A stretch of 64,000 bases of DNA from Verrucomicrobium spinosum DSM 4136 = JCM 18804 (GCF_000172155.1 NZ_ABIZ01000001.1:6667105-6731104), one strand, 5' to 3'; shown: positions 34,998 to 52,231, counted from the stretch's first letter. Program-made: numbers and translations. The notes: generated from the letters alone by a model not told the origin.

Positions 34998-37900
34998 TTA
35001 TTTCATCGTCTTCATGTAGGCGGCTAGATCTGCAAGATCCTGAGCGGTCAACCCCATCTCCTCCGCCGATAGCATGAGCGATCGGTTGAGCGGGGCCGTA
35101 CGATCCCGCAGCATCTCCCTGGGGATCATTTGCGTCAGACCACCCGTTGAGCGCACCGTGATGGGATCTGCGGCGCTGATCACAATACCCTGAACCTCTC
35201 TGCCGTCCTTCAGTGGAACACGCTCCCCTTCAAATCCCAGTGCAATGGTCTCCGATGGATTGACGAGGGCCTTGATGAAGGGAACCGCCCCCTGGTTTGC
35301 CACCCAACCCGCGAGGTTTGGGCCGTAGTCAACCCCCGCCCCATCGATCCGGTGGCACATCATGCAGCGGGCAGCCACTTGTTTGCCCTTCTCGGGATCT
35401 GCAGGAAGATCGAGTATCTTCGCGACAGGCGGCAGCTTGAAGGTTTTCTGGCGCTCTGGCAGACGCATCTCCTGAATGACCACCTTTTCCGGATCATAGA
35501 TGCCTTCGTCCTTGAGAGCGGCCCTGCCTCCAAACTCCTCCCACTCGTCGGTCGCGCGGATCAGAAGCCAGGCAGTGGCTTCCTCCGCGATGGCCGCCTC
35601 GGCCTTGCGCAGGGCAACCATGGCCTCCAAGGCAGATTTAGACCGGGTAAAGGCCAGTGTATCCATCGCAAGCTTGCGGTCGGCAAATGGCAACGCCGTG
35701 CTCCGCGCCCTTTGCAGCAGGTCCTGGACCGCAACCACCGGCTGCAAGCGCCAGGTGATGCGTGCAAACGCGGGAGTCCATGCCAGAGGCTGTTGTGACC
35801 CCAGTTCCTGCTTTACCCTCTTCCACACGTTTTCCTCGATGCCCTCCGCAGCAAGTCCGCACGCTTCCAGATAAGTTTTATCAATGCCATCATAAGTGAG
35901 AAAGAGCTTCACGGCCAGCGGCTCCCGATAGGCGGCGGGCAACTCACGCAACATCACCGCCACTTCGCGCCGCACCTCAGCGCTTGGATCCCTGACCAGC
36001 GCCTCAATCTCCGCAGCGTGGGCTGCAAAGTCATAGCCGGAGTTTCTTAGAACCCGTAGCGCCAGGAGGCGTGACCCGGCGTCGGGGGCAGTCAGACCCC
36101 GTTCGGCCTGAGCCACACCGCTCTCCCCCAGAAAAGGCAACAGCCACATGGCACGAGCACGAAATTCTGGAGCCGGATCCTTCAACATCTCATCAACAAC
36201 GGGTCTCGCCGCCGAGGGGTCGCGCAACGCCAGCGCTTTGAGCGCGGTGAAGCCGTCGAAACGAACGTTGGGAGCAGGGCTCTTGATCAGTGTCGCTGCG
36301 CCTCTGGCTGTGAGAGAACCGTCCTTGGTCAACTCCGGCTGCTCAATTTGCGGGCGGTGGTTCTTGGGAGCGATACGATAGATGGCACCAGAAAGGCTGT
36401 CATCCTGGGTCCCGTGACCACCGACTCCCAGATCATACCAGTCTGCCACGTAGATAGCACCATCCGCTCCTACCATGACATCACTGGGGCGGAACTGGGT
36501 GCCCGGCACCACCTTAAGGAACTCAAAACGCTCCAGCTTCTTTCCGGAACCCTCCACTGCCGGGTAGTAGCCGTAGAGAGTCTGCCGTCGCGCCTCCGCG
36601 CTGAGAAGCAGCCCACGATACTTCTCCGGGAGAGCCCCGTTCTCGTAGAAGGCTATCCCCGTAGGCGAGCCATTGCCATAGACATCACCAGGCGGCAACG
36701 TCCCGGGATCTTCCTGCCGCCAGTGGGCGGTGGGTATGGACTGCCCGCGCCGCCGGTCTGCCTCCCAGGTCCGTCTCCCACTCCGCGAGAAAAAGCCCAT
36801 AAAGCCGCCTTCCATCAGCCAGGTGGTCCGGCATGCGGGTGGATCATCATTGTCATTCTGATACACATCCCCATTGGATGACAGGCAATGCTCATAGCTG
36901 TTGCGGAATCCATGCCCGATCATCCGCAGTTTGGTTCCATCAGGATTCATGCTGGCGGCAAATCCCCCGGTCCAGATCCTGCCATCATCACTCCTTGCTC
37001 CCGACAGGGCTGTCCCAGATGCATAGGGCCCACCCACACGGTACCTGACCCCGTCCCGGGTGGTAAAGTCGGCACCGGTGTTGCCATGGTTGAAGTACCA
37101 TCTCCCGTCAGCTCCTGCCACCACCGCGTGCAGGCTGTGATCGTGGTTGGACCCAAAAAATCCGCTCAAAAGATATTCCTTCTTATCCTTCGCCGCATCA
37201 AAACGCCTGTCGCCGTCCACGTCTGTGTAAACGATGAGATGAGGCGGCTGCGCAACCACCACTTTGTTGCCAAAGACGGAGACTCCCAAGGGAGAAATCA
37301 GCTCGGGATCTTGCACGAAGACATGCGACGTGTCGGCCTTGCCGTCACGGTCAGCATCTTCCAGCACCACAATACGGTCCCCTTGAGGTCGCCGGTCCCT
37401 CTTACGACGGTAGTTCACTCCTTCCGCCACCCAGATGCGTCCCTCCCTGTCCGTATCCATGTTGGTTGGATTGAACAACAAGGGCGAAGAGGCCCACAAC
37501 GTCACCTCAAGGTCTTCAGGCACCACAATCTGGGCTGTAGGGACAAACGCTGCCGGCGGTGTATGGGTTGACGCAGCAGGCAGGGGTGCGGGTGCGGGTG
37601 CAGATGCTGCGGGCGGAGCGGATTCCTTGGCTGCCTTTTGCTCAGCCTTCGCCTTTGCCTCTCTGGCCTCTTTGGCGGCCCTGGCCGCTTCCGTCTGCGC
37701 CTGGTGCTCTTCCGGAGTCGGCACTGGCATTCGTTTGAGCTGGGTAAGCTCTTCCTCCTTGGGAAGAGTGATCCGCGGATTCGGGCGCCCGTAATCAAAC
37801 AGATTGCTATTGAGTTCGTCTTCACTGATCGGCAGCGAGTGCACCCCGTCTGGCGGCACATCCATTCCTGCCACCCAGACGATGGCATTCAGCACCAACC

Positions 37901-38744
37901 GCCGGTAGTCATTGATGGCCCAGTTCCGGTGAAAATGACCACCTGTGAAACCCACCCCGCGCCCGCCACCTTCACGCTCGGTGCCCCACATCAATGTTTG
38001 ACGGGTGCCCAGCGCTTCAAAACCCTCTTTGGTCCACAAGTTGTTTACACGCACCATGTTTTCCCGCGTGGGTGTGGCAGTGGCCAGGTCCAGCACCTTG
38101 GACCGGTCAGGCCGGAACCGCATGTTGTAGTAAAACTCATCATACGCTCGGATGGGACCTTTGATCCCGCGTGACACGGGATGTTCAGGCAGGGCCTGCA
38201 TGTCCGCCACCCAGAATGGATTGACGGAAAAGCCGGACTCAAAGGCACCTCCCGTCCAGGGCTGGAAGTACTTTTCTCCGTTGGCCTTGTCGGGATGGAC
38301 CGCATAGTGAAGGAACATGAGCCCGGTGCCCGCCTTGGCCAGCGCGTCCAGCCGCTGCCAGTTTCTGCCAATCAGGCCGGTGCCATTTTGATAAAATACC
38401 AGCGCGGCAGTTCCATCCAGAATGGCGTCGTTTTCAGGCCACGCCGTGAGAACCTCAGCACGTACCGGCAACCCGCTCTGTTCGTTCAGAGCCTTCGCCA
38501 GCAGGAGGCTGCCCGCCCGGAATTCGTGAAGGCCGGACCCATGGCCAACCGTGCCGGCAAAGAAGATGATCCGCCTTGGCTGAGGAGGCTCCACGGCCTC
38601 CACAGGCTTCAAGCCCAAACTCAAGGTCACCGTTCCCACAAGAAGCCCGCAACCCCATAGGGTGGCGCACCGCCTCAGGACCCCGCGCGCCCGGAGGCAC
38701 CATAATCCACTGTTATAGGTTAGAGATGTCAACGTATTGCTCAT
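34998..38744 (-). CDS. ThuA domain fused to PVC-type heme-binding CxxCH protein
   Basis: 1248 residues. A signal/anchor (ATLWGCGLLVGTVTLSLGL) is followed by a ThuA-like (trehalose-utilisation) domain to about 310 (IIFFAGTVGHGSGLHEF, GLMFLHYAVHP, GGHFHRNW). A Lys/Ala then Pro/Ala-rich linker spans about 345-400. The membrane-bound-dehydrogenase beta-propeller follows (VTLWASSPLLFNPTNMDTD, GRIWVAEGVNY, SNHDHSLHAVV), then HEAT-like helices. A c-type heme domain ends the protein, with CMMCH about 120 residues from the C-terminus and an expected distal region MGLTAQDLADLAAYMK. PVC proteins of this type are thought to oxidise sugars or polyols outside the cytoplasm. The substrate is unknown. The ATG at 38744 is preferred. 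Confidence 0.9.
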   Translation of the reverse strand: MSNTLTSLTYNSGLWCLRARGVLRRCATLWGCGLLVGTVTLSLGLKPVEAVEPPQPRRIIFFAGTVGHGSGLHEFRAGSLLLAKALNEQSGLPVRAEVLTAWPENDAILDGTAALVFYQNGTGLIGRNWQRLDALAKAGTGLMFLHYAVHPDKANGEKYFQPWTGGAFESGFSVNPFWVADMQALPEHPVSRGIKGPIRAYDEFYYNMRFRPDRSKVLDLATATPTRENMVRVNNLWTKEGFEALGTRQTLMWGTEREGGGRGVGFTGGHFHRNWAINDYRRLVLNAIVWVAGMDVPPDGVHSLPISEDELNSNLFDYGRPNPRITLPKEEELTQLKRMPVPTPEEHQAQTEAARAAKEAREAKAKAEQKAAKESAPPAASAPAPAPLPAASTHTPPAAFVPTAQIVVPEDLEVTLWASSPLLFNPTNMDTDREGRIWVAEGVNYRRKRDRRPQGDRIVVLEDADRDGKADTSHVFVQDPELISPLGVSVFGNKVVVAQPPHLIVYTDVDGDRRFDAAKDKKEYLLSGFFGSNHDHSLHAVVAGADGRWYFNHGNTGADFTTRDGVRYRVGGPYASGTALSGARSDDGRIWTGGFAASMNPDGTKLRMIGHGFRNSYEHCLSSNGDVYQNDNDDPPACRTTWLMEGGFMGFFSRSGRRTWEADRRRGQSIPTAHWRQEDPGTLPPGDVYGNGSPTGIAFYENGALPEKYRGLLLSAEARRQTLYGYYPAVEGSGKKLERFEFLKVVPGTQFRPSDVMVGADGAIYVADWYDLGVGGHGTQDDSLSGAIYRIAPKNHRPQIEQPELTKDGSLTARGAATLIKSPAPNVRFDGFTALKALALRDPSAARPVVDEMLKDPAPEFRARAMWLLPFLGESGVAQAERGLTAPDAGSRLLALRVLRNSGYDFAAHAAEIEALVRDPSAEVRREVAVMLRELPAAYREPLAVKLFLTYDGIDKTYLEACGLAAEGIEENVWKRVKQELGSQQPLAWTPAFARITWRLQPVVAVQDLLQRARSTALPFADRKLAMDTLAFTRSKSALEAMVALRKAEAAIAEEATAWLLIRATDEWEEFGGRAALKDEGIYDPEKVVIQEMRLPERQKTFKLPPVAKILDLPADPEKGKQVAARCMMCHRIDGAGVDYGPNLAGWVANQGAVPFIKALVNPSETIALGFEGERVPLKDGREVQGIVISAADPITVRSTGGLTQMIPREMLRDRTAPLNRSLMLSAEEMGLTAQDLADLAAYMKTMK

Positions 38745-38855
38745 AGTTCTACTGTCGTTTGTTTTTGGGGCATGACGCCCCACTGGGGGGAAAGCTTAAC
38801 GATCGTGGACAGCAGGGTTCCCTCTGCACAGTCCGTTCGAGGCAGTTGTCCGGCA

Positions 38856-40112
38856 TCACAGCCGGATGAAGAGGTTGCGCTTGTAGAGGAACCGCACAAA
38901 CAGCACCGGCAGCAGGAGTGCGACCATGGCGATCACAAACCCGCCTGAGCCAGGTCTGAGGCTTGCATCGAGAAATCTTGCCACATCGCCACCGACGATC
39001 CGCGCCGCAAGCGCCTCACAGTTCACAACGCTGACAGCGATATAGACAACAAGCGCATTCCCTCCAATCCAGAGAAAGGGAGCGCACCACCGCTGCCATC
39101 TCCATAGATCAACGACCAGATAAAACAAGCCCAGCAACACGGCTGAAAATCCGGCGGCGACCATGCAGAAAGAAGAGGTCCAGAGCCGCTTGATCACAGG
39201 GAACTCCAGCCCCCAGAGCAGCCCTATCACCACACCTGCCAGGCCTGATCCAACCAGCCACCCCACTTTCCACCTGCCACTCCGCCGCCCATGCGTGAGC
39301 ACCCACCCAGCCAGGACCCCAAAGAGGGTGCTCGCCACGGCTGGGATGGTGCTCAGAAGCCCCTCATTGCTGTAGTAGAGATTGCGTTTCCTGCCCGGCA
39401 ACCAGCACGCGTCCACGTAGTGGGCAAGATTCAGCCCCTCTTTGAAGGTGCCCTTGGTGGTGCTTGCCGCCCCCGCAAACAACTCCTCGCGGGTCTTCGC
39501 CTCCACCTGCTTTCTGGCACCGGCCGGGGTCTTGATGTCAACGTTCGGAAAGGGCACAAAGAGCATCAGCGCCCAGTAGCCCAGAAGGCACGCTGCGGTG
39601 GCGATCACGATGCCCTTGCGAGGCAACAAGACATAGAGCGTGGCCGCCACCAGGTAACACAGCGCGATGCGCGGCAGCACTCCTGAAAGTTGCACGTCAG
39701 GCCAGGGGCGGGCAATGCCTCCGTAGTAGAACACCCCCACTGCAAAGAGGAGTGCACTCCTCCTCACGATGCGAGCCAGCGCCCTGCTCCGGCCAACACG
39801 CGCCACCATGCGATCCACCGACAACACAATCGACACACCGACCAGGAACAAGAACAGGGGGAAAATGGCATCGTAAAAGCGAAACCCCTCCCATTCGACA
39901 TGTTGCAGCTGGGACGATATAAAGGAAACAACCGGGCCACCTCCCAACGCCTCCAGCGCCCTGGCCGCAGTCTCGCCTCCAATGATCCAGAACATGTCGA
40001 ACCCACGAAGCGCGTCCACAGACAGATACCTCGTGGGGGGCTCTGATCTGGGGGCATCGCGAGAAGGCAACGGAGTTTCCATAGACGTTAGTTCAGATTC
40101 TTTGATGTTCAT
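38856..40112 (-). CDS. HGSNAT-like (DUF5009) transmembrane acyltransferase
   Basis: 418 residues, about ten membrane helices. RYLSVDALRGFDMFWIIGGE near the N-terminus and VEWEGFRFYDAIFPLFLFLVG are the signature of the heparan-alpha-glucosaminide N-acetyltransferase-like family. That family moves acetyl groups across a membrane onto glucosamine ends. LSGVLPRIALCYLVAATLYV and NALVVYIAVSVVNCEAL follow. The start may be the ATG at 40112 or 40082; the open frame runs further but is not family-like. The 37-bp shared element lies 162 bp upstream, and the PL8 lyase gene precedes it. A role in glycosaminoglycan breakdown is inference from those neighbours. Confidence 0.85.
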   Translation of the reverse strand: MNIKESELTSMETPLPSRDAPRSEPPTRYLSVDALRGFDMFWIIGGETAARALEALGGGPVVSFISSQLQHVEWEGFRFYDAIFPLFLFLVGVSIVLSVDRMVARVGRSRALARIVRRSALLFAVGVFYYGGIARPWPDVQLSGVLPRIALCYLVAATLYVLLPRKGIVIATAACLLGYWALMLFVPFPNVDIKTPAGARKQVEAKTREELFAGAASTTKGTFKEGLNLAHYVDACWLPGRKRNLYYSNEGLLSTIPAVASTLFGVLAGWVLTHGRRSGRWKVGWLVGSGLAGVVIGLLWGLEFPVIKRLWTSSFCMVAAGFSAVLLGLFYLVVDLWRWQRWCAPFLWIGGNALVVYIAVSVVNCEALAARIVGGDVARFLDASLRPGSGGFVIAMVALLLPVLFVRFLYKRNLFIRL

Positions 40113-40273
40113 TGCAGCGGCAGGCAGGATCGCAGCCACATGGTCCCAAGGTGAAGGCGCACATCGAAGGGAAGCACAGCGGCACTGCCACCATGAGCAG
40201 GAAGCCCTGTGGAAAGTTGATCGAGTCCATGGATCGTCACGCCTGAAACAACGCGCGAACCACTGGCAGATTC

Positions 40274-40310
40274 CGTGATCAAACCGCCAGAATATATGGT
40301 GATCCTGCCA
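40274..40310. promoter_or_regulatory. Shared 37-bp element, copy A
   Basis: CGTGATCAA (40274-40282), GCCA (40286-40289), AAT (40291-40293) and ATCCTGCCA (40302-40310) match the copy at 45467-45503 with identical spacing and no gaps, 30 of 37 bases the same. It lies in the gap upstream of the HGSNAT-like gene. An outer TGGCAG (40264) mirrors the terminal CTGCCA. The length and repeat pattern fit an AraC-family operator. Confidence 0.7.
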
Positions 40311-40398
40311 ATCGAGCACCCGCATCGGGAGACGGGGTTCAGGAAATCTCCCCAGCCTCGTTTTACCTGCCAAAGCCGGAACTGAAGCACGTCGCGAG

Positions 40399-42945
40399 CT
40401 ACTCTGCCGGGCGAAGGTGAAACTCCACACTGCGGGCATCAGCACACGGGACGGTGACCACCGTGTGGCCCATCGCATCCACCTGGCTCCGCAGCCCCCC
40501 TTCTGGCGCTTCCACCTGCCACTTTCCCTTGAGAGTAAGGGTAACGGGCGTTGCCACCGGCGACATAGGTTCAGCATCCCCCTGTTGATTCCACTTGCCG
40601 TACTGCAAGCCCTTCGTCCAGGCCAGGTCAGGATGACAAACGCTGATGTTCACCCCGCCCTGCGGATCTTTCCGCGTCATCAACAGGCAGGGCGCATCCG
40701 CCCGGTCCAGAAACGGGTCATCCAGAGGGGTGAAAGGCTTCATCACCGCATAACCGGTAAGACCAAGCCGGAGATGGCTGACCACATGGGCGACCTCATC
40801 CTTCCTGCTGACCCTGTATTCTTGCGCCGCCCGGGAGGCGAAGGCCTCCAGCCCCTTCTCTCCAGACCTCACGAGTATGACATACTCCGCTGAGTCGTTC
40901 TTTGGATCGGCACCATGATCAATCCAAGCTGTCGTGAAAAGCCCCTTCGTCTCTTTGGAGGCGGACTCATCCATCGAGACCTGCTCCATCCTGGTTACCA
41001 CCACCTTCTGTCCCGCAGGAACATAGTAGCCGTTGTCAGCCGCATCAATGAGGACAGCCGCCTCCGCTCCAGACAGCGTCTCCCCACGGTGCAATCCTGC
41101 AATCGGCCTCCCCTGGACATAGGTGGAGTGCTCTGCGGATGGAAGCGCCGTCTGGAACAGGTGGGTGCCCACAGCATGAACGCCGTCACCGTCCCGGATG
41201 TTTGAGGTCAGCATCACAATCTGCTCATCAAAGAAAAATGACGACTTGATGGCACGAAGCGGCTTCACACGCCGGTCAGGCGCAACCTCTGAATAATCCA
41301 TCGCAAAAACTCCATGCCTTCCTTCCAGGGTGACTCCGCCGACGAAGCCCGCATCGCTGTAGGGCCGGTTGAAGCTACGCCCCACAGTGTCCATCTCCAG
41401 CATTTCACTGACGGCAAGGTATCGCGTCGTCGTGCCCGGGACGCGGCACCAGTCCCAGCCCTGCCTTGCGTAGCCGCTGTCCGCAGCATTTACGAAAGGC
41501 TGGCCCGATGAATAGATCAGGATGCTGGCCGATCCATCGTGAAATCCAAACACATTTTCCTGCCGGGGATAGTTGCGATCATCCGTGAGGGACCTTTCAA
41601 ATGCCCACCAGTAGCGGCTGTGCCCTTTGATGCTCACCATCCAGTTGTCACGGCGGTGAATTTCCAACGGCCCGTAGTTGAATGACCAATGGCCCTGCGG
41701 ATCCTTTTCCGCGCCAGTCTTTCTGGCGGACTCCAGCGTCCGTATGAAATGCGAGATCGCGCCCGGCCCCGGCGGCACTTCATTGCGTGACGATCCGAAA
41801 GGCCGCCGCCCCAGAGGGCCATTCATGAACTCAGTATCTGCCAAACGTGCAAGGATGGCCTGGAATGTCGCCTGCCTCGGGTGGCGCATGTCCGCAAGAT
41901 AGCCGTAGCTCAGCATAATCTCCGGGATCGACGAAAAATGGGAAAAACGCCCGCCGAGAGCCTGATGCATGTCATACTTCTGCGACACGATTCTCAACGT
42001 CTCCAGGCCATGCGCAATGTTGGCAACGGTTCCCTCTGTGAGGGCAAAGCCTGTGTCACGCATCAACCACGCCGCAAAGGCCGTTTGGGCCAGCGCGTTC
42101 GCGCCGTATCCACTCGGATAGACCCCGCGGTGATGAAAACAGAGCCCGTCCGGCTTCAGTGTGTCCAGGGCGTTGGACTCCGCAAGCATGGACCGATCCA
42201 GCTGGTGCTTCAGCCAGGCCAGCCGGTTGACATTGCCCTCAGCCAAGGCTGCGGGCAGGCTCAAATTGAGTACTACCCTCAATCCGTCAGCCTCGAGATA
42301 GCCTGCTCTGAGATCTCCGGTCTTCTCGCCATGGCTCTCGATCTCCCAGCAGGTTGCCAGGGTCCGCTCCAGGCGGCCTGTAGCCCGCAACTCGTCCCTC
42401 ATGAGGAATGCGGCGATGGCATAGCCAGACATTCGCAGGTTGAAGTCCACGATCATCGCCTGGTCCGCCGCCGGGTTCTTTATCTGCGCGGCTTTCCACG
42501 GCAGTTGCATCGGTTTTCGGAAGCCTCTTTCATGCAGCCGGTCGAACGTCTTAAAGAGTGCCGCCTTCACCTTTTCGTCATGATAGTAAGGGTTGGGCCG
42601 CCGCTCACTCCCTTTCAGGTGGTAGGCGATGCTGAGGGTGGGCAACACCTCAGTGATGAGGCTCCTCAACTCCGCTTCATCCGGGCCTTTTTTTACCGTG
42701 TTGTAAAGTGAAGTCTCCTTGGCGGCCGGCCCAGGAATGTCCGCTTGCAGAAGTGCGTTTTTTACAGCTCTGGTCGCTGAACTCAGACGAAGTTCGCCAT
42801 AAGGGGTTTCATAAGGGGACACAGTGCCCTCGAGAACCCATTCCAGATAGCGTCCACGCAAGACGTCCAGATCCTCCATGTTGGCCGCAGACAATTTTCC
42901 AAGCAGCATCAACGCTGCGACGAGGCAGCACGCGATATGTTTCAT
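40399..42945 (-). CDS. Secreted polysaccharide lyase family 8 (chondroitin/hyaluronan-lyase-like)
   Basis: 848 residues with a signal peptide (CCLVAALMLLGKLSAA). The alpha/alpha-toroid contains the PL8 active-site segment KPDGLCFHHRGVYPSGYG, with His271/272 and Tyr276/280 as candidate catalytic residues. LYNTVKKG and later VDFNLRMSGYAIAAF also fit. The beta-sandwich half (SRYWWAFERSLTDDRNYP, ENVFGFHDGSASILIYSSG) matches the family middle and C-terminal domains. Such enzymes cleave uronic-acid-containing glycosaminoglycans by beta-elimination. The exact polymer is not predictable. The ATG at 42945 is chosen at the signal peptide. It follows FecR by about 200 nt and may share its transcript. 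Confidence 0.85.
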   Translation of the reverse strand: MKHIACCLVAALMLLGKLSAANMEDLDVLRGRYLEWVLEGTVSPYETPYGELRLSSATRAVKNALLQADIPGPAAKETSLYNTVKKGPDEAELRSLITEVLPTLSIAYHLKGSERRPNPYYHDEKVKAALFKTFDRLHERGFRKPMQLPWKAAQIKNPAADQAMIVDFNLRMSGYAIAAFLMRDELRATGRLERTLATCWEIESHGEKTGDLRAGYLEADGLRVVLNLSLPAALAEGNVNRLAWLKHQLDRSMLAESNALDTLKPDGLCFHHRGVYPSGYGANALAQTAFAAWLMRDTGFALTEGTVANIAHGLETLRIVSQKYDMHQALGGRFSHFSSIPEIMLSYGYLADMRHPRQATFQAILARLADTEFMNGPLGRRPFGSSRNEVPPGPGAISHFIRTLESARKTGAEKDPQGHWSFNYGPLEIHRRDNWMVSIKGHSRYWWAFERSLTDDRNYPRQENVFGFHDGSASILIYSSGQPFVNAADSGYARQGWDWCRVPGTTTRYLAVSEMLEMDTVGRSFNRPYSDAGFVGGVTLEGRHGVFAMDYSEVAPDRRVKPLRAIKSSFFFDEQIVMLTSNIRDGDGVHAVGTHLFQTALPSAEHSTYVQGRPIAGLHRGETLSGAEAAVLIDAADNGYYVPAGQKVVVTRMEQVSMDESASKETKGLFTTAWIDHGADPKNDSAEYVILVRSGEKGLEAFASRAAQEYRVSRKDEVAHVVSHLRLGLTGYAVMKPFTPLDDPFLDRADAPCLLMTRKDPQGGVNISVCHPDLAWTKGLQYGKWNQQGDAEPMSPVATPVTLTLKGKWQVEAPEGGLRSQVDAMGHTVVTVPCADARSVEFHLRPAE

Positions 42946-43148
42946 AGTGTTTTTCGAAATTGATTTCAAGGGCGGACACAAAGAGGTCATCCGCATCAAG
43001 TGCCGGATGCGGAGCAGGGTCAGACGCCCCTTGCCAGACTCGCGGAGCGCGCCCGGCAATCCTGCCCCGCTATTTCTGCGGGGACCGCTTGTCCTTTCAC
43101 CTTACAGACCCACAGCTTCAGCCGCGGGCTCACGACGCATGCCGCACA

Positions 43149-44588
43149 TTATTGATGGTTCTCTGTAATAACGGACACACGCAGTTTTGTGAATGAAAAG
43201 TCCCCGCCCTTGCCGTTCTTGACACGGACCCTGTCGAAGCGCAGGTCGGGGTCGGTCAGACCTTTGGCAATGGGCACGCCCCGCACCCCCCAGCCCCGAA
43301 AGACTTCAAAAGCCCCGGTCCGCTGGCGGTACCTGATCGTGAAAGTCGCTTCACTCCCCTGAATGGCCAGATCATACGCCGTGCGGCGCTCGTTGGGTCC
43401 ACGGTAGCCCTTCCCATAAGTGAGCACCTCCCAAGAATAGGAATCCGAACCCTTGTCTCCGAAGAAGAGAACCTCGCCTTCCCCATCAAACAAACTCACC
43501 CCGGCAAACCCTTTTGAGTGGAAGAGGGAGCGGGGTGAAACTGACTCAAAAGAAAGCAGCACCACGGCATCGCTGCCTGGCTCGACCGCTCTCGAGAAGT
43601 GGCCCATCATAGAGGCATCCCGGCCTTGCGCATCAAAGCGCCCTTCACGCACCACCGGAGTTCCTTCCAGTACCGACCACGCCCCCTTCGCCGGCTGTTG
43701 CTCCGCAAACACCGCCGCCGGAATGCCAGCAAGGTTCTCGTCAAAGATCACCTCCATATCTGGCGCTGCATCGCGCAGTTTAAAGCTGGCATCACTGTTG
43801 CTGATCAATGTGCGGCCGGTGGCCAGGCTGAGCATGCTTTCCCCTTCACCAAGAGTCTGCGGCAGGGCGCTGTCATTTTTCATGCGGACTTCCACGCGCC
43901 CCTCTTCAACGTGAACTTCGTGCACCTCTTCTTCTGCTGAAACGGTAAATATGGTGCCCAAGTCCACCACCTCCATCCACGGCGTCTCCACCGTGAACCC
44001 TTTGGCATGATGGGGAACAACGAACCGCCCAGAGCCGCGTTCAAGCTTGATCTGGTTCGCACCGGTGACGGCGAATCGCGACGGTCCCTGGATCTGAGCC
44101 TCGACACCGGAGCCAAGCCGGATGTTTACTCCACCTTGCTGCATCACCATTTCTTCACCAAAGCGCAATTGCCCATCATCTCCGGCCCCACCAGCGACCA
44201 TCTCAAAGACCGCTGCCGGCGTGAACTCCACCAGAGGCAACCTGGAAGCCGTCGGTGGAAGCGTTTGTCCGGATTCCGTTTTCATGAGCCACGCGACCGT
44301 GGCTGTCAACGCCAGCATCAAGACTGTCACGACGCCCAAAAGTCCAAGGAGGGGCCTCCGGGAAATGGCCTTTTGAGGCGCAGGCTCAGCGCTTCCCATT
44401 CCGTCCCAGTCAAGTTCCAGCAGGAGGGTGTCAATCCGCACTTTTTCGAGGTACTGCGCAAGCAAGTCATCGTCTGTCTTCAACCTCGCTTGCAAGTCCT
44501 TCGCTGAGGCGTCGTCCAGCAATCCCTCGATCAGCAAATCGATCGAGCGACTCAGTTTGAAGCGTTCATATGGCGTGTTTTCACTCAT
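43149..44588 (-). CDS. FecR-family transmembrane regulator with C-terminal sandwich domain
   Basis: 479 residues. The N-terminal cytoplasmic part (YERFKLSRSIDLLIEGLLDD, DLLAQYLEKVRID) would contact the sigma factor. One membrane helix at about 80-100 (LLGLLGVVTVLMLALTATVAWLM) follows, then the periplasmic FecR domain (VNIRLGSGVEAQIQGPSRF, VETPWMEVVDLGTIFTVS). A jelly-roll-like extension (EVLTYGKGYRGPNERRTAYD) resembles LamG modules of verrucomicrobial FecR proteins. It overlaps the sigma gene stop by ATGA. No TonB receptor is adjacent, unlike the classical FecIRA set. Confidence 0.88.
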   Translation of the reverse strand: MSENTPYERFKLSRSIDLLIEGLLDDASAKDLQARLKTDDDLLAQYLEKVRIDTLLLELDWDGMGSAEPAPQKAISRRPLLGLLGVVTVLMLALTATVAWLMKTESGQTLPPTASRLPLVEFTPAAVFEMVAGGAGDDGQLRFGEEMVMQQGGVNIRLGSGVEAQIQGPSRFAVTGANQIKLERGSGRFVVPHHAKGFTVETPWMEVVDLGTIFTVSAEEEVHEVHVEEGRVEVRMKNDSALPQTLGEGESMLSLATGRTLISNSDASFKLRDAAPDMEVIFDENLAGIPAAVFAEQQPAKGAWSVLEGTPVVREGRFDAQGRDASMMGHFSRAVEPGSDAVVLLSFESVSPRSLFHSKGFAGVSLFDGEGEVLFFGDKGSDSYSWEVLTYGKGYRGPNERRTAYDLAIQGSEATFTIRYRQRTGAFEVFRGWGVRGVPIAKGLTDPDLRFDRVRVKNGKGGDFSFTKLRVSVITENHQ

Positions 44589-45211
44589 GAGCGTGGCAGG
44601 CGAGACTTGAGGCATTTTCCAAGGGCTTCCCTGAGGCGAAAAAGCCTGGCTCTCAGCATTCCTGTGCGGACTCCCTCGTGTTCAGCATATGTCTCCAGCG
44701 AGACGTTTGTTCCATAGCGAATGTGCAGAAGCTTTTGGTCCTCAGAGTTTAGTTTCTTTCTGCACATTTCCAGGGCAGCCAATTCGTCCTCGATGAAATC
44801 GGGTTCTTCCGCCACCAGCTGCCGGGCCATATGGTCCATCAATTCTTCGTCTATCAGGACCACTTTTGATCGTGCCAGCTTCTTCCGGTGATTCAGAACA
44901 AGATATCTGGCGGTCTGAAAAGCCCAGGCCTTGAAGTTCGTGCCAAGGGTGAATTCAGCGCGTTTCTCCCACAATTTCAGAAGAGTTTCCTGTGCAATGT
45001 CATCCGCGTCTGCGCAACCGGGCAATAGAGACCTCACATAATGGCGCACAGATGGGGCATGGCGGCGCAACGTTGCGCCAAACTCCTCCTCCCCCTTTGG
45101 ACCTACGCCTGATGCAGGAACTGCGGGGGGGCAGGTCCCTCCGCCTCCACCCGACCCACTCAGCACGTTGCCCGTCGTCGGCCAGCATAAGGTGTCTAGA
45201 ATGTTCTCCAT
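44585..45211 (-). CDS. ECF sigma factor (FecI-like)
   Basis: 208 residues. Region 2 reads DADDIAQETLLKLWEKRAEF, then FKAWAFQTARYLVLNHRKK. Region 4 is CRKKLNSEDQKLLHIRYG followed by SLETYAEHEGVRTGMLRARL. A Gly/Pro-rich N-terminal stretch (SGSGGGGGTCPPAVPASG) precedes region 2. It directs RNA polymerase to target promoters when released by FecR, whose ATG overlaps its stop codon. The ATG at 45211 is chosen; an earlier frame extension is not sigma-like. Copy B of the 37-bp element lies about 256 bp upstream, in the gap shared with the divergent AraC gene. Confidence 0.92.
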   Translation of the reverse strand: MENILDTLCWPTTGNVLSGSGGGGGTCPPAVPASGVGPKGEEEFGATLRRHAPSVRHYVRSLLPGCADADDIAQETLLKLWEKRAEFTLGTNFKAWAFQTARYLVLNHRKKLARSKVVLIDEELMDHMARQLVAEEPDFIEDELAALEMCRKKLNSEDQKLLHIRYGTNVSLETYAEHEGVRTGMLRARLFRLREALGKCLKSRLPRS

Positions 45212-45466
45212 ACTCAATATCAAATCGTTGTGTCCGTACCACGTCGCCCCAGCAGGGCCATGCGCCTGAGCCCTCCGCATTCAACAAAGCCGTCCCGGCG
45301 TCATCTCATCTGTATGAGCCGACATCGGCATTCGTGTAACCATGCGGCTCCTGCAGCATTGCATTCCCACGGTCCGGAATTCAGAAATCAGCAGTCCGGC
45401 CAGTTCGATAAAATGAGAGTTTTCGACAATCACGTTCAAACAAACGCCCCCCTGAAACGTTGTTTT

Positions 45467-45503
45467 CGTGATCAATCTGCCATAATCTGTGATTATCCTG
45501 CCA
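45467..45503. promoter_or_regulatory. Shared 37-bp element, copy B
   Basis: CGTGATCAA (45467-45475), GCCA (45479-45482) and ATCCTGCCA (45495-45503) repeat copy A exactly in spacing. Within it ATAATC-TGT-GATTAT is a perfect inverted repeat, and CTGCCA occurs twice, 20 bp apart. It ends 1 nt before the ATG of the divergent PAS-AraC gene and lies upstream of the sigma/FecR genes. It could serve both autoregulation and activation. Confidence 0.7.
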
Positions 45504-45504
45504 T

Positions 45505-46245
45505 ATGAGGTGCCTCCTCCAAGACGAATTTTTCTCAAAAGTTGAAGAGCCCCAGGCCGTCAGGCACATTTTCGAGCACATCCCTGAAGTGTTCTTCTTT
45601 GTCAAAGATCGCCAGAGTCGCCTCATGGCGGGCAGCAACAACATGGTACAGCGGCTTGGGTTGAAGCGGGAGGCAGATCTTGTCGGGAAAGGAGATGAGG
45701 AGTTCTTCGATATTCACCTCGTCCAGGCGTTTCGCAGGGACGATGAACTCGTGTTTCGCACCGGAAAGCCTCTCATCAATCGATTGGAATTGTGGTATGA
45801 CGAACAGCGGAACCACGCCTGGTTTCTCACCACTAAAACCCCCCTTCGCGGTAAAGGTGGTGAAGTAGTGGGTTTGATGGGAATCACCCGGCGGGACGAA
45901 AGTACTCACAACTACCACCCGGCGGGCGTGGTGGCAAAAATAGTGGATTATCTCAACAAGAACTCCACTCAAGCTCTGAGCACCGCAGATCTGGCCCGGA
46001 CCTTTTTCATGTCTGAGCGTACACTCCATCGTAAAATTCATGAATCCCTGGGCATTTCACCTTATGAGCTGATGATTCGGATTCGTATTCAGAAGGCGGC
46101 CGAAGCCCTGGTAAAATCCAATGCCAAGGTGATCGAAGTTGCCATCGAACATGGCTTCTGTGACTCGAGCAGTTTTACCCAGCACTTCCGGAAGAGAATC
46201 GGCATCACCCCCTCCCAGTTCCGAAAGCGTCACCAATCCTCTTGA
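45505..46245 (+). CDS. PAS-AraC transcription regulator
   Basis: 246 residues. A PAS domain at about 20-130 (EHIPEVFFFVKDRQSRLMAG, FRTGKPLINRLELWYDEQRN, FLTTKTPLRG, VVGLMGITRRDES) is followed by an AraC DNA-binding domain at about 140-240. The latter has two helix-turn-helices (LSTADLARTFFMSERTLHRKIHE and VIEVAIEHGFCDSSSFTQHFRKR). The PAS would bind a small ligand or sense redox state. It is transcribed away from the ECF sigma gene, with the 37-bp element ending 1 nt before its ATG. The next gene, convergent, is a paralogue. Confidence 0.9.
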   Translation: MRCLLQDEFFSKVEEPQAVRHIFEHIPEVFFFVKDRQSRLMAGSNNMVQRLGLKREADLVGKGDEEFFDIHLVQAFRRDDELVFRTGKPLINRLELWYDEQRNHAWFLTTKTPLRGKGGEVVGLMGITRRDESTHNYHPAGVVAKIVDYLNKNSTQALSTADLARTFFMSERTLHRKIHESLGISPYELMIRIRIQKAAEALVKSNAKVIEVAIEHGFCDSSSFTQHFRKRIGITPSQFRKRHQSS

Positions 46246-46282: not shown

Positions 46283-47218
46283 TCAAAGCTCATCCGTGTG
46301 GCGTACGCGCGTCGGGTTCAGCCTCGCCCGGCGGTAGGCGCGGGGAGTCTCTCCTGTGTACTTCTTAAATTGGGCGGTGAACACGCTCTGGTCGTAGAAG
46401 GCATGATCCACGGCTATCTCTCCAATAGGCTTGTCCGTCGTAGCGAGCTCATTCCCACTGGACTGAATTCGCAGCCGGATGATGTACTCCTGCACACTCA
46501 TCCGGAAAGTCTCCTGGAATTTGCGGTTGAGATGCCGGCCGGACACATGGGCCATTCCAGCAAGGATGGAAACCGCGATCCGGCTGCGATAGTTTTGCCG
46601 GATGAAAGCAACTACCTGTTCAAGCTTCGAATCCCCCGAACTCTGGCTTGCTCCAGGTTGGAAAGGCCGGACCGTTCCCATCACTCCAATGACCTCGTCC
46701 TTTGAATTCACAATCGGGATTTTCGTGGTGAGGAACCAGTCTTTCGTCCTCGACCTTTTATAGAGAGCTTCCACCCGGTCAATCAACGGCTGCCGGGTCT
46801 TCATCACCTGCAAATCGTCTTCACGAATGGCCCTTGCCACATTTGCAGGATGAATCTTGTCGTCACCCGCACCAATCAACTCCTCCTCATGAGCCAGTCC
46901 AACCCTGCGGAGAGTACCCGCGCTGATGGCCACAAAACGACTGTCCCGGTCCTTTGCAAAGTAGTCAACATCCGGCATGAGTTCGATGAGCTTACGAAAT
47001 TGCGAAAGCCCCCCCATTTCATTGAAGAACCTCGCTTGATACTCCCCGGCTGACATAGCCTGCCCGCCCGAACTCCTTGAGTCGCTCTGGACCTTCTGAC
47101 TGGAAGTGCCAGGAAACGGGTCAACCGTGCCTTTGGTCGGGCCATAGAGCCCTAAAGGTCTCCTGGAGACTTCACCAGGTTCGGAATGGAGCATGTCACT
47201 CTTATCGTACGATTGCAT
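46283..47218 (-). CDS. PAS-AraC transcription regulator
   Basis: 311 residues. The PAS domain (ELMPDVDYFAKDRDSRFVAI, MKTRQPLIDRVEALYKRSRT, WFLTTKIPIVNSKDEVIGVMG) lies at about 75-195, then the AraC domain (IAVSILAGMAHVSGRHLNRK, IGEIAVDHAFYDQSVFTAQFKKYTGETPRAYRR split across two helices) to the C-terminus. The first ~55 residues are a low-complexity tail, so an ATG at 47056 (MSAGEYQARFF) is a possible alternative start. It is convergent with the 45505 gene (37-nt gap) and lies just downstream of the PVC cytochrome on the same strand. Closely similar in sequence to module 2 of the double regulator at 50627. Confidence 0.9.
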   Translation of the reverse strand: MQSYDKSDMLHSEPGEVSRRPLGLYGPTKGTVDPFPGTSSQKVQSDSRSSGGQAMSAGEYQARFFNEMGGLSQFRKLIELMPDVDYFAKDRDSRFVAISAGTLRRVGLAHEEELIGAGDDKIHPANVARAIREDDLQVMKTRQPLIDRVEALYKRSRTKDWFLTTKIPIVNSKDEVIGVMGTVRPFQPGASQSSGDSKLEQVVAFIRQNYRSRIAVSILAGMAHVSGRHLNRKFQETFRMSVQEYIIRLRIQSSGNELATTDKPIGEIAVDHAFYDQSVFTAQFKKYTGETPRAYRRARLNPTRVRHTDEL

Positions 47219-50626: not shown

Positions 50627-52231
50627 ATGCAAGCTGGCACTGATACTGCACCGCCACCGGCATCGGACGACACTTGTGGGGCTTCTCAATCAGAAGATGC
50701 GTCCGGCAGCGAGCTTCAGAAGCAGTTTTTTAGAAAGCTGGTGGGTACCTTCCACTTGTTCAAGCTTCTCTCACTGATGTCAGACGCAAGCTACTTCGTG
50801 AAAGACAGCAGAGGCCGGTTCATGGCTGCGGGCGGCGGTCTTCTCCAACACCTGGGCGTAAAGGGAGAGGAAGACCTGCTGTCCTCCACGGATTTCGCCT
50901 TCTTCCCACCTCACCTGGCCCACGCGATGCGCATGGACGATCTGCGTGTGATGCAAACGCGCCAACCTATGGTGGACCGGCTTGAGCTGCTCCATAGCAA
51001 CCGTGGCACCAAACGTTGGCACTTGACCACCAAGTTGCCACTCATTGGCCCTGACGGCACCCCCATGGGCATCATGGGAGTGGTCAGGCCCTGCAACGAT
51101 GCCAGCGATCCAGCCGTGCCTCAACAGGTCCGCAAAGCCGTCGCGTACATCCATGATCATTTTTCTGAAAGTCTCTCCACAGCTTTCATGGCGAAGAAGG
51201 TGCATGCCTCAGCCCGGCATCTCAACCGGCTTTTCCACAATGCTTTCGGCATGGGGGTGCAGGATTTCATCCTGCGCACCAGGGTGGCTGCAGTGTGCCA
51301 ATGCCTCCTCTGCTCCAACAAGCCTGTGGCTGACATCGCCTATGAACATGGCTTCTACGATCAAAGCGCCATGTCCAGATATTTCCGCCAATACACCGGC
51401 GAGAGCCCCCACACCTGGCGCCACCGCCACCGGAGCGCCGGAAGCAGGCCTTTGCCGGCGAGTGGCACGGCACACTGTGCACAAGCGGCTGCCAAGACGC
51501 TCCAAGATGCTTTTTTCGCCCAGTTGTCCAGTCATCTGCCGCTCCGACAGTTGTTGGAACATCTCCCGGACATGGACTACTTCACCAAAGATTGTTCGGG
51601 CCGTTTCACAGCAATCCGGTCCGCCACGGTGATCCGCCTGGGATTCCGCTCCGAAGAGGAAGCATTGGGTATCACGGACTTTGATATTCATCCCGCGAAG
51701 GTGGCAGAAGCCATTCGCAATGACGACTTGCATATCATGCGCACGCGCCAGCCCATGATTGACCAGCTGGAAGAACTCTACACCCGCCCAAGCGTCAAAG
51801 GCAGGTTCCTCACGACAAAGCTACCCGTTACAGACCGGAATGAGCAGGTCATCGGCGTCATGGGTTTTATTCGCCCGGCCCCGGGGGAGTTGCTCCAGGT
51901 TGCCACTCGTACACCTGTGGAGTTAGTTGTGGCTCACATTCGTGAGCGGCACTTTGAGAAGCTTCTCATCAGCGATCTGGCATCCATTGGAAAGGTGTCG
52001 CCTCGTCAATTGAACAGAATGTTTCAGGAATCTTACCGCCTGAGTGCCCAGGACTTCATCATCCGCACCCGTGTCCAGGCAGCCTGTGCAGACCTGGTGT
52101 CCACGCGAAATTCGCTGGCGGAGATCGCCTGTGCCCACGGCTTCTGCGACGCCAGCACCTTCACCCGGCAGTTCAAGCATCATATGGGGGAGACCCCTCT
52201 CATCTACCGGCGGCGGCGCACCGCTGGCTAG
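50627..52231 (+). CDS. Tandem double PAS-AraC-PAS-AraC regulator
   Basis: 534 residues made of two complete copies of the PAS-AraC unit with a period of about 262 residues. Module 1: PAS 45-155 (TRQPMVDRLELLHSNRG at 111), HTH 165-265 (HGFYDQSAMSRYFRQYTGE at 241). Module 2: PAS 305-420 (TRQPMIDQLEELYTRPS at 373), HTH 430-530 (HGFCDASTFTRQFKHHMGE at 504). The linker RSAGSRPLPASGTAHCAQA (269-287) joins them. One chain thus carries two sensor and two DNA-binding domains, an intramolecular dimer. No frameshift or stop separates the halves. Target and ligand unknown. Confidence 0.92.
   Translation: MQAGTDTAPPPASDDTCGASQSEDASGSELQKQFFRKLVGTFHLFKLLSLMSDASYFVKDSRGRFMAAGGGLLQHLGVKGEEDLLSSTDFAFFPPHLAHAMRMDDLRVMQTRQPMVDRLELLHSNRGTKRWHLTTKLPLIGPDGTPMGIMGVVRPCNDASDPAVPQQVRKAVAYIHDHFSESLSTAFMAKKVHASARHLNRLFHNAFGMGVQDFILRTRVAAVCQCLLCSNKPVADIAYEHGFYDQSAMSRYFRQYTGESPHTWRHRHRSAGSRPLPASGTAHCAQAAAKTLQDAFFAQLSSHLPLRQLLEHLPDMDYFTKDCSGRFTAIRSATVIRLGFRSEEEALGITDFDIHPAKVAEAIRNDDLHIMRTRQPMIDQLEELYTRPSVKGRFLTTKLPVTDRNEQVIGVMGFIRPAPGELLQVATRTPVELVVAHIRERHFEKLLISDLASIGKVSPRQLNRMFQESYRLSAQDFIIRTRVQAACADLVSTRNSLAEIACAHGFCDASTFTRQFKHHMGETPLIYRRRRTAG

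Follow-up and report, generated by a model that had tools for sequence, protein, structure and literature searches.

A tandem-repeat element in Verrucomicrobium spinosum as the likely operator of a PAS-AraC regulator, and its reuse before other genes in relatives

A 37-bp element occurs twice in a stretch of 64,000 nucleotides from Verrucomicrobium spinosum DSM 4136 = JCM 18804 (GCF_000172155.1 NZ_ABIZ01000001.1:6667105-6731104), referred to here as the window, with positions counted from its first letter. One copy (B) is flanked by the plus-strand gene of a regulator with PAS_4 and AraC-type helix-turn-helix (HTH) domains, named the 45505 regulator after its start, and by divergent minus-strand genes for an extracytoplasmic function (ECF) sigma factor, a FecR-domain protein and a polysaccharide lyase of family 8 (PL8); the other (A) lies between the PL8 gene and a minus-strand gene for a NagX/HGSNAT-like acetyltransferase (Table 1). 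From the sequence comparisons presented below, we consider it likely that the element is an AraC/XylS-type operator of the 45505 regulator, through which this protein would repress its own gene and activate the divergent operons at B and A. As the element stands at the start of the regulator gene both here and in more than 40 relatives, and is reused before genes for the degradation of sugar polymers, it is most likely the docking site of this regulator.

The two copies are intergenic, lie on the plus strand and are identical at 30 of 37 positions without gaps, as described in the initial annotation of the window. When every 37-mer of the window was compared with all others on the same strand, four pairs matched at 29 or more positions, one of which is A/B; the remaining three link paralogous PVC-heme genes (about 35-38.8 kb versus 47.3-50.1 kb), leaving A/B as the sole pair outside paralogous genes. 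The number of pairs of this quality expected by chance is about 0.007 per 64 kb, and about 4e-5 within roughly 6 kb of intergenic DNA, in agreement with the earlier opinion that a fortuitous pair was unlikely. When the 8.22-Mb genome was scanned with a 36-nt consensus allowing up to three mismatches, a check that the annotation had proposed, the element proved not to be scattered: A and B were the only matches, no third copy was found at this threshold, and the reversed control gave none. Copy B does end 1 nt before the ATG at 45505. The description of both copies as equally oriented relative to downstream minus-strand genes was correct in that both are on the plus strand, but the 45505 gene is itself on the plus strand, so B sits between this gene and the divergent minus-strand sigma gene.

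Each copy consists of two 15-bp half-sites, roughly GTGATnAnnCYGCCA, arranged as a direct repeat with a 21-bp period. Comparison of B with itself gave the best match of all periods at 21 bp (13 of 16 positions), and in A the same period scored 10 of 16, tied with 24 bp as the best. The CTGCCA/CYGCCA boxes start at 40284 and 40305 in A and at 45477 and 45498 in B, so the spacing is 21 bp and not the 20 bp first reported, and it is invariant in the alignment of orthologue promoters from relatives. The element has the build of an AraC-family dimer site, as suggested in the annotation, in the form of tandem direct-repeat half-sites. The inner inverted repeat of B (AATCTGTGATT), which had been offered as part of such a site, is not conserved in relatives and was rejected as a recognition feature. 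Also discarded, as too unspecific, was the loose pattern CYGCCA-N15-CTGCCA, which had 33 matches genome-wide, several of them from tandem CTGCCA repeats. In the 60 bp preceding the element A and B share only 22 identical positions, yet two blocks keep a constant distance from it towards the minus-strand genes, namely AACGC at 40250 and 45443 and TCACG at 40237 and 45430. The divergent side is marked by a conserved AT-rich/AACGC block, a candidate promoter core, accompanied by weak -10 boxes.

A relative of the 45505 protein was detected at E <= 1e-50 in 54 of 68 family genomes, with a close orthologue (E < 1e-70) in more than 40 of these. Comparison of orthologous loci, the other check proposed at the outset, revealed that the element is kept exactly at the start of the PAS-AraC orthologues across the family, with more copies before other genes. 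The promoters of 23 family orthologues could be aligned without gaps over 42 columns, 12 of which are invariant, and in their prevailing pattern, CTGCCA-N5-TGT-TAnnnT-CCTGCC-ATG, the second CTGCCA ends with the A of the start codon. Column counts from 29 sequences showed that the TG and, in the following hexamer, the A at the second position and the last T are nearly invariant in the second half-site and that 6 nt separate the hexamer from the ATG. This resembles an extended -10 promoter (TGn plus TAnnnT about 6 nt before the start codon). Copy B fits this scheme more loosely, its hexamer being GATTAT with 8 nt to the ATG. The regulator-side promoter is probably leaderless and overlapped by the operator.

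To follow the element beyond the regulator gene we used a sequence-only profile (R1) trained on 23 AraC-adjacent copies, copy A being excluded. At E <= 0.1 the element was detected in 44 of 67 family genomes, with one to seven copies each, and at E <= 0.001 it was also present in seven genomes from elsewhere in the order, outside the family. Classification of 66 distinct copies, including A and B, gave 27 with an intact AraC gene on the plus side, nine with an AraC stub and 30 with neither. At every one of the 39 copies without an intact AraC gene, a divergent open reading frame (ORF) of 150 aa or more begins within 330 bp, and 11 of the 39 have one on the plus strand; random positions give about 60% on either side, which makes the ORF test weak by itself, but the asymmetry is clear. 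In relatives, the products of the divergent genes include xylose isomerase (TIGR02630, above the cut-off), GH10 xylanase-like proteins, sulfatases, DUF5722 proteins, DUF6807/DUF7133 heme proteins of the PVC type and FAD oxidoreductases. Several target promoters are thus indicated by the 39 of 66 copies that stand apart from an intact regulator gene, and this genome itself has two clear copies.

Could B be a mere core promoter of the regulator gene, extended -10 and leaderless, with A as a fortuitous match or a defunct copy? In the second half, conservation is indeed highest over the TG, the -10 hexamer and the ATG, and five orthologues (L069, L071, L077, L078 and L087; L codes denote loci) keep this second half with no first half-site beside the gene. 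However, CTGCCA is not a promoter element and is nevertheless kept twice, 21 bp apart. Moreover, the 30 copies without any AraC remnant keep half-site 1 in 28 cases and half-site 2 in 27 (scored as CnGCCA boxes) and the ATG in 13, compared with an ATG in 26 of 27 AraC-bearing copies. Retention of the half-sites while the ATG is lost argues that the element serves the divergent gene independently of being the AraC promoter. Copy A has this same operator-only form, since it keeps the repeat and has lost the -10 (GGTGAT) and the ATG, with a divergent gene present. On balance, we regard the core-promoter explanation as rather unlikely.

The identity of the binder is suggested by the distribution of regulator and element. 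Every scanned family genome with a close orthologue (E < 1e-70) has the element, and among those without one only G041 does (G000 being this genome and other G codes those of relatives). This co-occurrence is partly built in by training the profile on AraC-adjacent copies; the part independent of training is that operator-only copies occur in genomes with an orthologue, G041 being the single exception. In addition, the HTH1 recognition helix reads SERxLHR or SERxLYR in the element-bearing orthologues, and the E is replaced in the seven paralogues aligned.

Several observations weigh against an operator role, most of them concerning copy A. Its score with the family profile is low (Table 1), it was not recovered in the whole-genome profile scan, and in its second half-site CTGCCA is intact but the GTGAT box only partial. 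At both A and B the divergent promoters have weak -10-like boxes. The HGSNAT orthologues of relatives lack the element, the A-HGSNAT arrangement being found in this genome alone, and in G021 the HGSNAT gene directly follows the sigma-FecR pair. Finally, some of the copies in relatives spread recently by duplication, so that their similarity reflects in part descent rather than selection. What favours A is its similarity to B together with the shared flanking blocks, which suggest a site of the same kind.

There is only a slim chance that A works as the operator of a second PAS-AraC protein, the paralogue encoded next door at 46283 (34% identical), because the upstream region of that gene has no element of its own, and in relatives the element tracks the 45505 clade, whose HTH1 recognition helix differs. 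An ECF promoter, recognised by the sigma factor encoded beside B and also transcribing the HGSNAT operon, is very improbable as well. The sigma/FecR genes are indeed divergent from B, a sigma homologue (50-53%) is likewise divergent from the AraC orthologue in two genomes of the same genus, and a third, weak copy in this genome adjoins another ECF sigma gene of the same family. Most copies in relatives, however, lie beside catabolic genes with no adjoining sigma gene, the conserved partner is the AraC gene, and inspection of A and B revealed no pair of GGAAC-type -35 and CGTC-type -10 boxes. We give equally little credence to the idea that A and B have no regulatory role and are direct repeats left over when the 5.2-kb sigma-FecR-PL8 segment was inserted or underwent site-specific recombination: they do flank this segment as direct repeats, FecR and HGSNAT genes are adjacent in G021, and G038 and G042 have a block between a full and a half element, but same-genus genomes without PL8 and HGSNAT already have the sigma gene divergent from the AraC orthologue, almost all copies of the element stand immediately ahead of a divergent gene, and no recombinase was seen in the segment.

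According to the operator model that we favour, a dimer of the 45505 regulator would occupy the two half-sites. At B, half-site 2 covers the -10 region and start of the probably leaderless promoter of the regulator gene itself. Bound there, the dimer should silence this promoter and so produce autorepression. Half-site 1 faces the divergent sigma/FecR/PL8 operon, which the same dimer would activate. Copy A would be the same operator without a regulator gene and, 5.2 kb away, would drive the NagX/HGSNAT-like operon. The PAS domain probably senses a signal related to sugars, given that the element stands at xylA and GH10 genes in relatives.

Table 1. Features of the window bearing on the two copies of the element
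Feature	Position	Strand	Remarks
Copy B, putative operator overlapping the PAS-AraC promoter	45467..45503	+	30/37 to A; profile R1 29.8 bits, E 3.9e-6 over the whole genome (B is in the training set); conserved at orthologues
Copy A, putative operator upstream of the NagX/HGSNAT-like gene	40274..40310	+	30/37 to B; family profile 6.9 bits, weak
B half-site 1, GTGATCAATCTGCCA	45468..45482	+	best B self-match at period 21; CYGCCA kept in relatives
B half-site 2, GTGATTATCCTGCCA	45489..45503	+	holds extended -10-like box TGT-GATTAT (45488-45496)
A half-site 1, GTGATCAAACCGCCA	40275-40289	+	
A half-site 2, ATGGTGATCCTGCCA	40296-40310	+	
AACGC next to B, candidate minus-strand promoter core on the divergent side	45443..45447	-	equally spaced in A, B and relative L093 (-20 relative to profile column 1)
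AACGC next to A, placed as at B	40250..40254	-	as B block
PAS_4 + AraC-type HTH regulator, likely binder	45505..46245	+	Pfam HTH_18 1.9e-23, PAS_4 1.4e-11; element stands at the start of orthologues
ECF sigma factor (TIGR02989), opening the divergent operon at B	44585..45214	-	family match; homologue divergent in same-genus genomes
FecR-domain protein, sigma operon	43149..44588	-	Pfam FecR 1.2e-9
PL8 protein, sigma operon	40399..42945	-	Pfam Lyase_8 1.6e-29
NagX/HGSNAT-like membrane acetyltransferase downstream of A	38856..40082	-	alternative start near 40113; Pfam HGSNAT_cat 7.8e-7
ThuA + PVC-type heme-binding protein, next after the HGSNAT-like gene	34998..38783	-	probable operon

The araI half-sites of E. 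coli have a defined period and overlap the -35 region. As in the araI1-araI2 pair of E. coli AraC (PMC4760080), the element presents two adjacent half-sites at a divergent regulator/structural pair, and the regulator would control a catabolic operon; unlike in the E. coli system, no distant looping operator was identified here, and the 45505 regulator, whose start is probably leaderless, carries a PAS_4 domain. Another close precedent from experimental work is the MtlR operator of PmtlE from Pseudomonas fluorescens, at least 37 bp long and located upstream of the -35 of a sugar-alcohol operon, in which two 15-bp direct-repeat blocks follow the pattern AGTGC-N5-AGTAT-N7-AGTGC-N5-AGGAT with a period of 22 (PMC4514859). 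The element resembles it in length, in its two 15-bp direct-repeat blocks and in the AraC/XylS family of the regulator, and falls within the dimensions of such direct repeats (half-sites of about 15 bp, period of about 21-22 bp), but it differs in half-site sequence and in also covering the regulator's own start; MtlR, in turn, has an AraC-like sugar-binding domain where the 45505 regulator has PAS. XylR of E. coli, whose ligand-binding domain is of the LacI/GalR type (cited in PMC4514859), is an AraC-family activator of xylose genes, which recalls the presence of the element at xylA and GH10 genes in relatives. In contrast to the XylR case, neither of the two xylA genes of this genome has the element upstream, so the regulon seems to have moved here to other substrates (PL8 lyase and NagX-like acetyltransferase). 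A limited literature search found no described case of this regulon.

Of the putative targets, PL8 is found in this genome alone among 67 family genomes, and in two copies: the second gene (58% identical) lies 0.7 Mb off at G000:C1:7404000-7420000 (L196), with a PVC-heme gene about 70% identical to the 34998 gene. The NagX/HGSNAT-like protein scored 268 bits against NCBIfam NagX, under the cut-off of 480.

Further PAS-AraC proteins are encoded nearby, at 46283-47218 and about 50714-52219 of the window (paralogues L042, L041 and L043), two of them lying one after the other in a single open frame of 542 codons (G000:C1:6717818-6719323), which may be a fused double regulator. Another paralogue (L044) is divergent from a xylose isomerase gene at G000:C1:1327194-1329408, without the element. 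The element is absent at the PAS-AraC paralogues of this genome except for a half copy, TGTGATTGATCCGCCATG, at the start of a 57% paralogue of the 45505 regulator (G000:C1:7355324-7355959; L034, L108), the frame of which stops early, with the second HTH incomplete. About 7 kb from that paralogue lies the third weak candidate mentioned above (G000:C1:7363223-7363252; L108:17212-17253), which reached 14.8 bits and E 0.2 in the whole-genome profile scan; the ECF sigma gene that it adjoins is also of TIGR02989, and AACGCC stands at nearly equal distance.

Up to five copies of the element occur within 30 kb in relatives. Loci of G040, G042 and G054 (L104, L143, L144, L145, L149, L150 and L151) have a near-identical operator, divergent promoter and signal-peptide codons before unrelated genes. 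Across such loci in several relatives, identity is mostly 14-20 per 20 bases from the element through the divergent promoter to about codon 12-15, and falls to about 25% after roughly 100-120 bp, the gene bodies being unrelated, a pattern suggestive of the divergent promoter spreading in one piece. The nine AraC stubs measure about 47-53 codons, and eight are fused to one identical foreign sequence, the ninth (L148) being cut by a contig end. In L145, L146, L147, L149:3917, L152, L157, L161 and L172 the fusion sequence is antisense to a short XRE-like HTH ORF, and another set of copies shares a different antisense ORF end (GFADPDMEALRQKLNEMILNGRR), that of a collagen-like repeat protein. A tentative view of these loci, which we hold as possible rather than probable, is that the element is the core of a portable cassette, made up of the 5' end of the regulator gene, operator, divergent promoter and first 12-15 codons, that has been copied onto unrelated genes for secreted enzymes in Verrucomicrobiota, with spare regulators decaying to stubs and A/B as an old instance. 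This idea is not needed for explaining A and B. Were it true, each copied cassette would wire a new gene into the PAS-AraC regulon and export its product in one step.

For a clade of Verrucomicrobiota regulators, the operator that we propose provides a testable sequence together with a regulator and a list of targets, and it would link a PAS-type sensor to the use of polysaccharides and pentoses. It also offers a case for following the growth of a regulon across genomes, in which a promoter may be copied together with a signal peptide.

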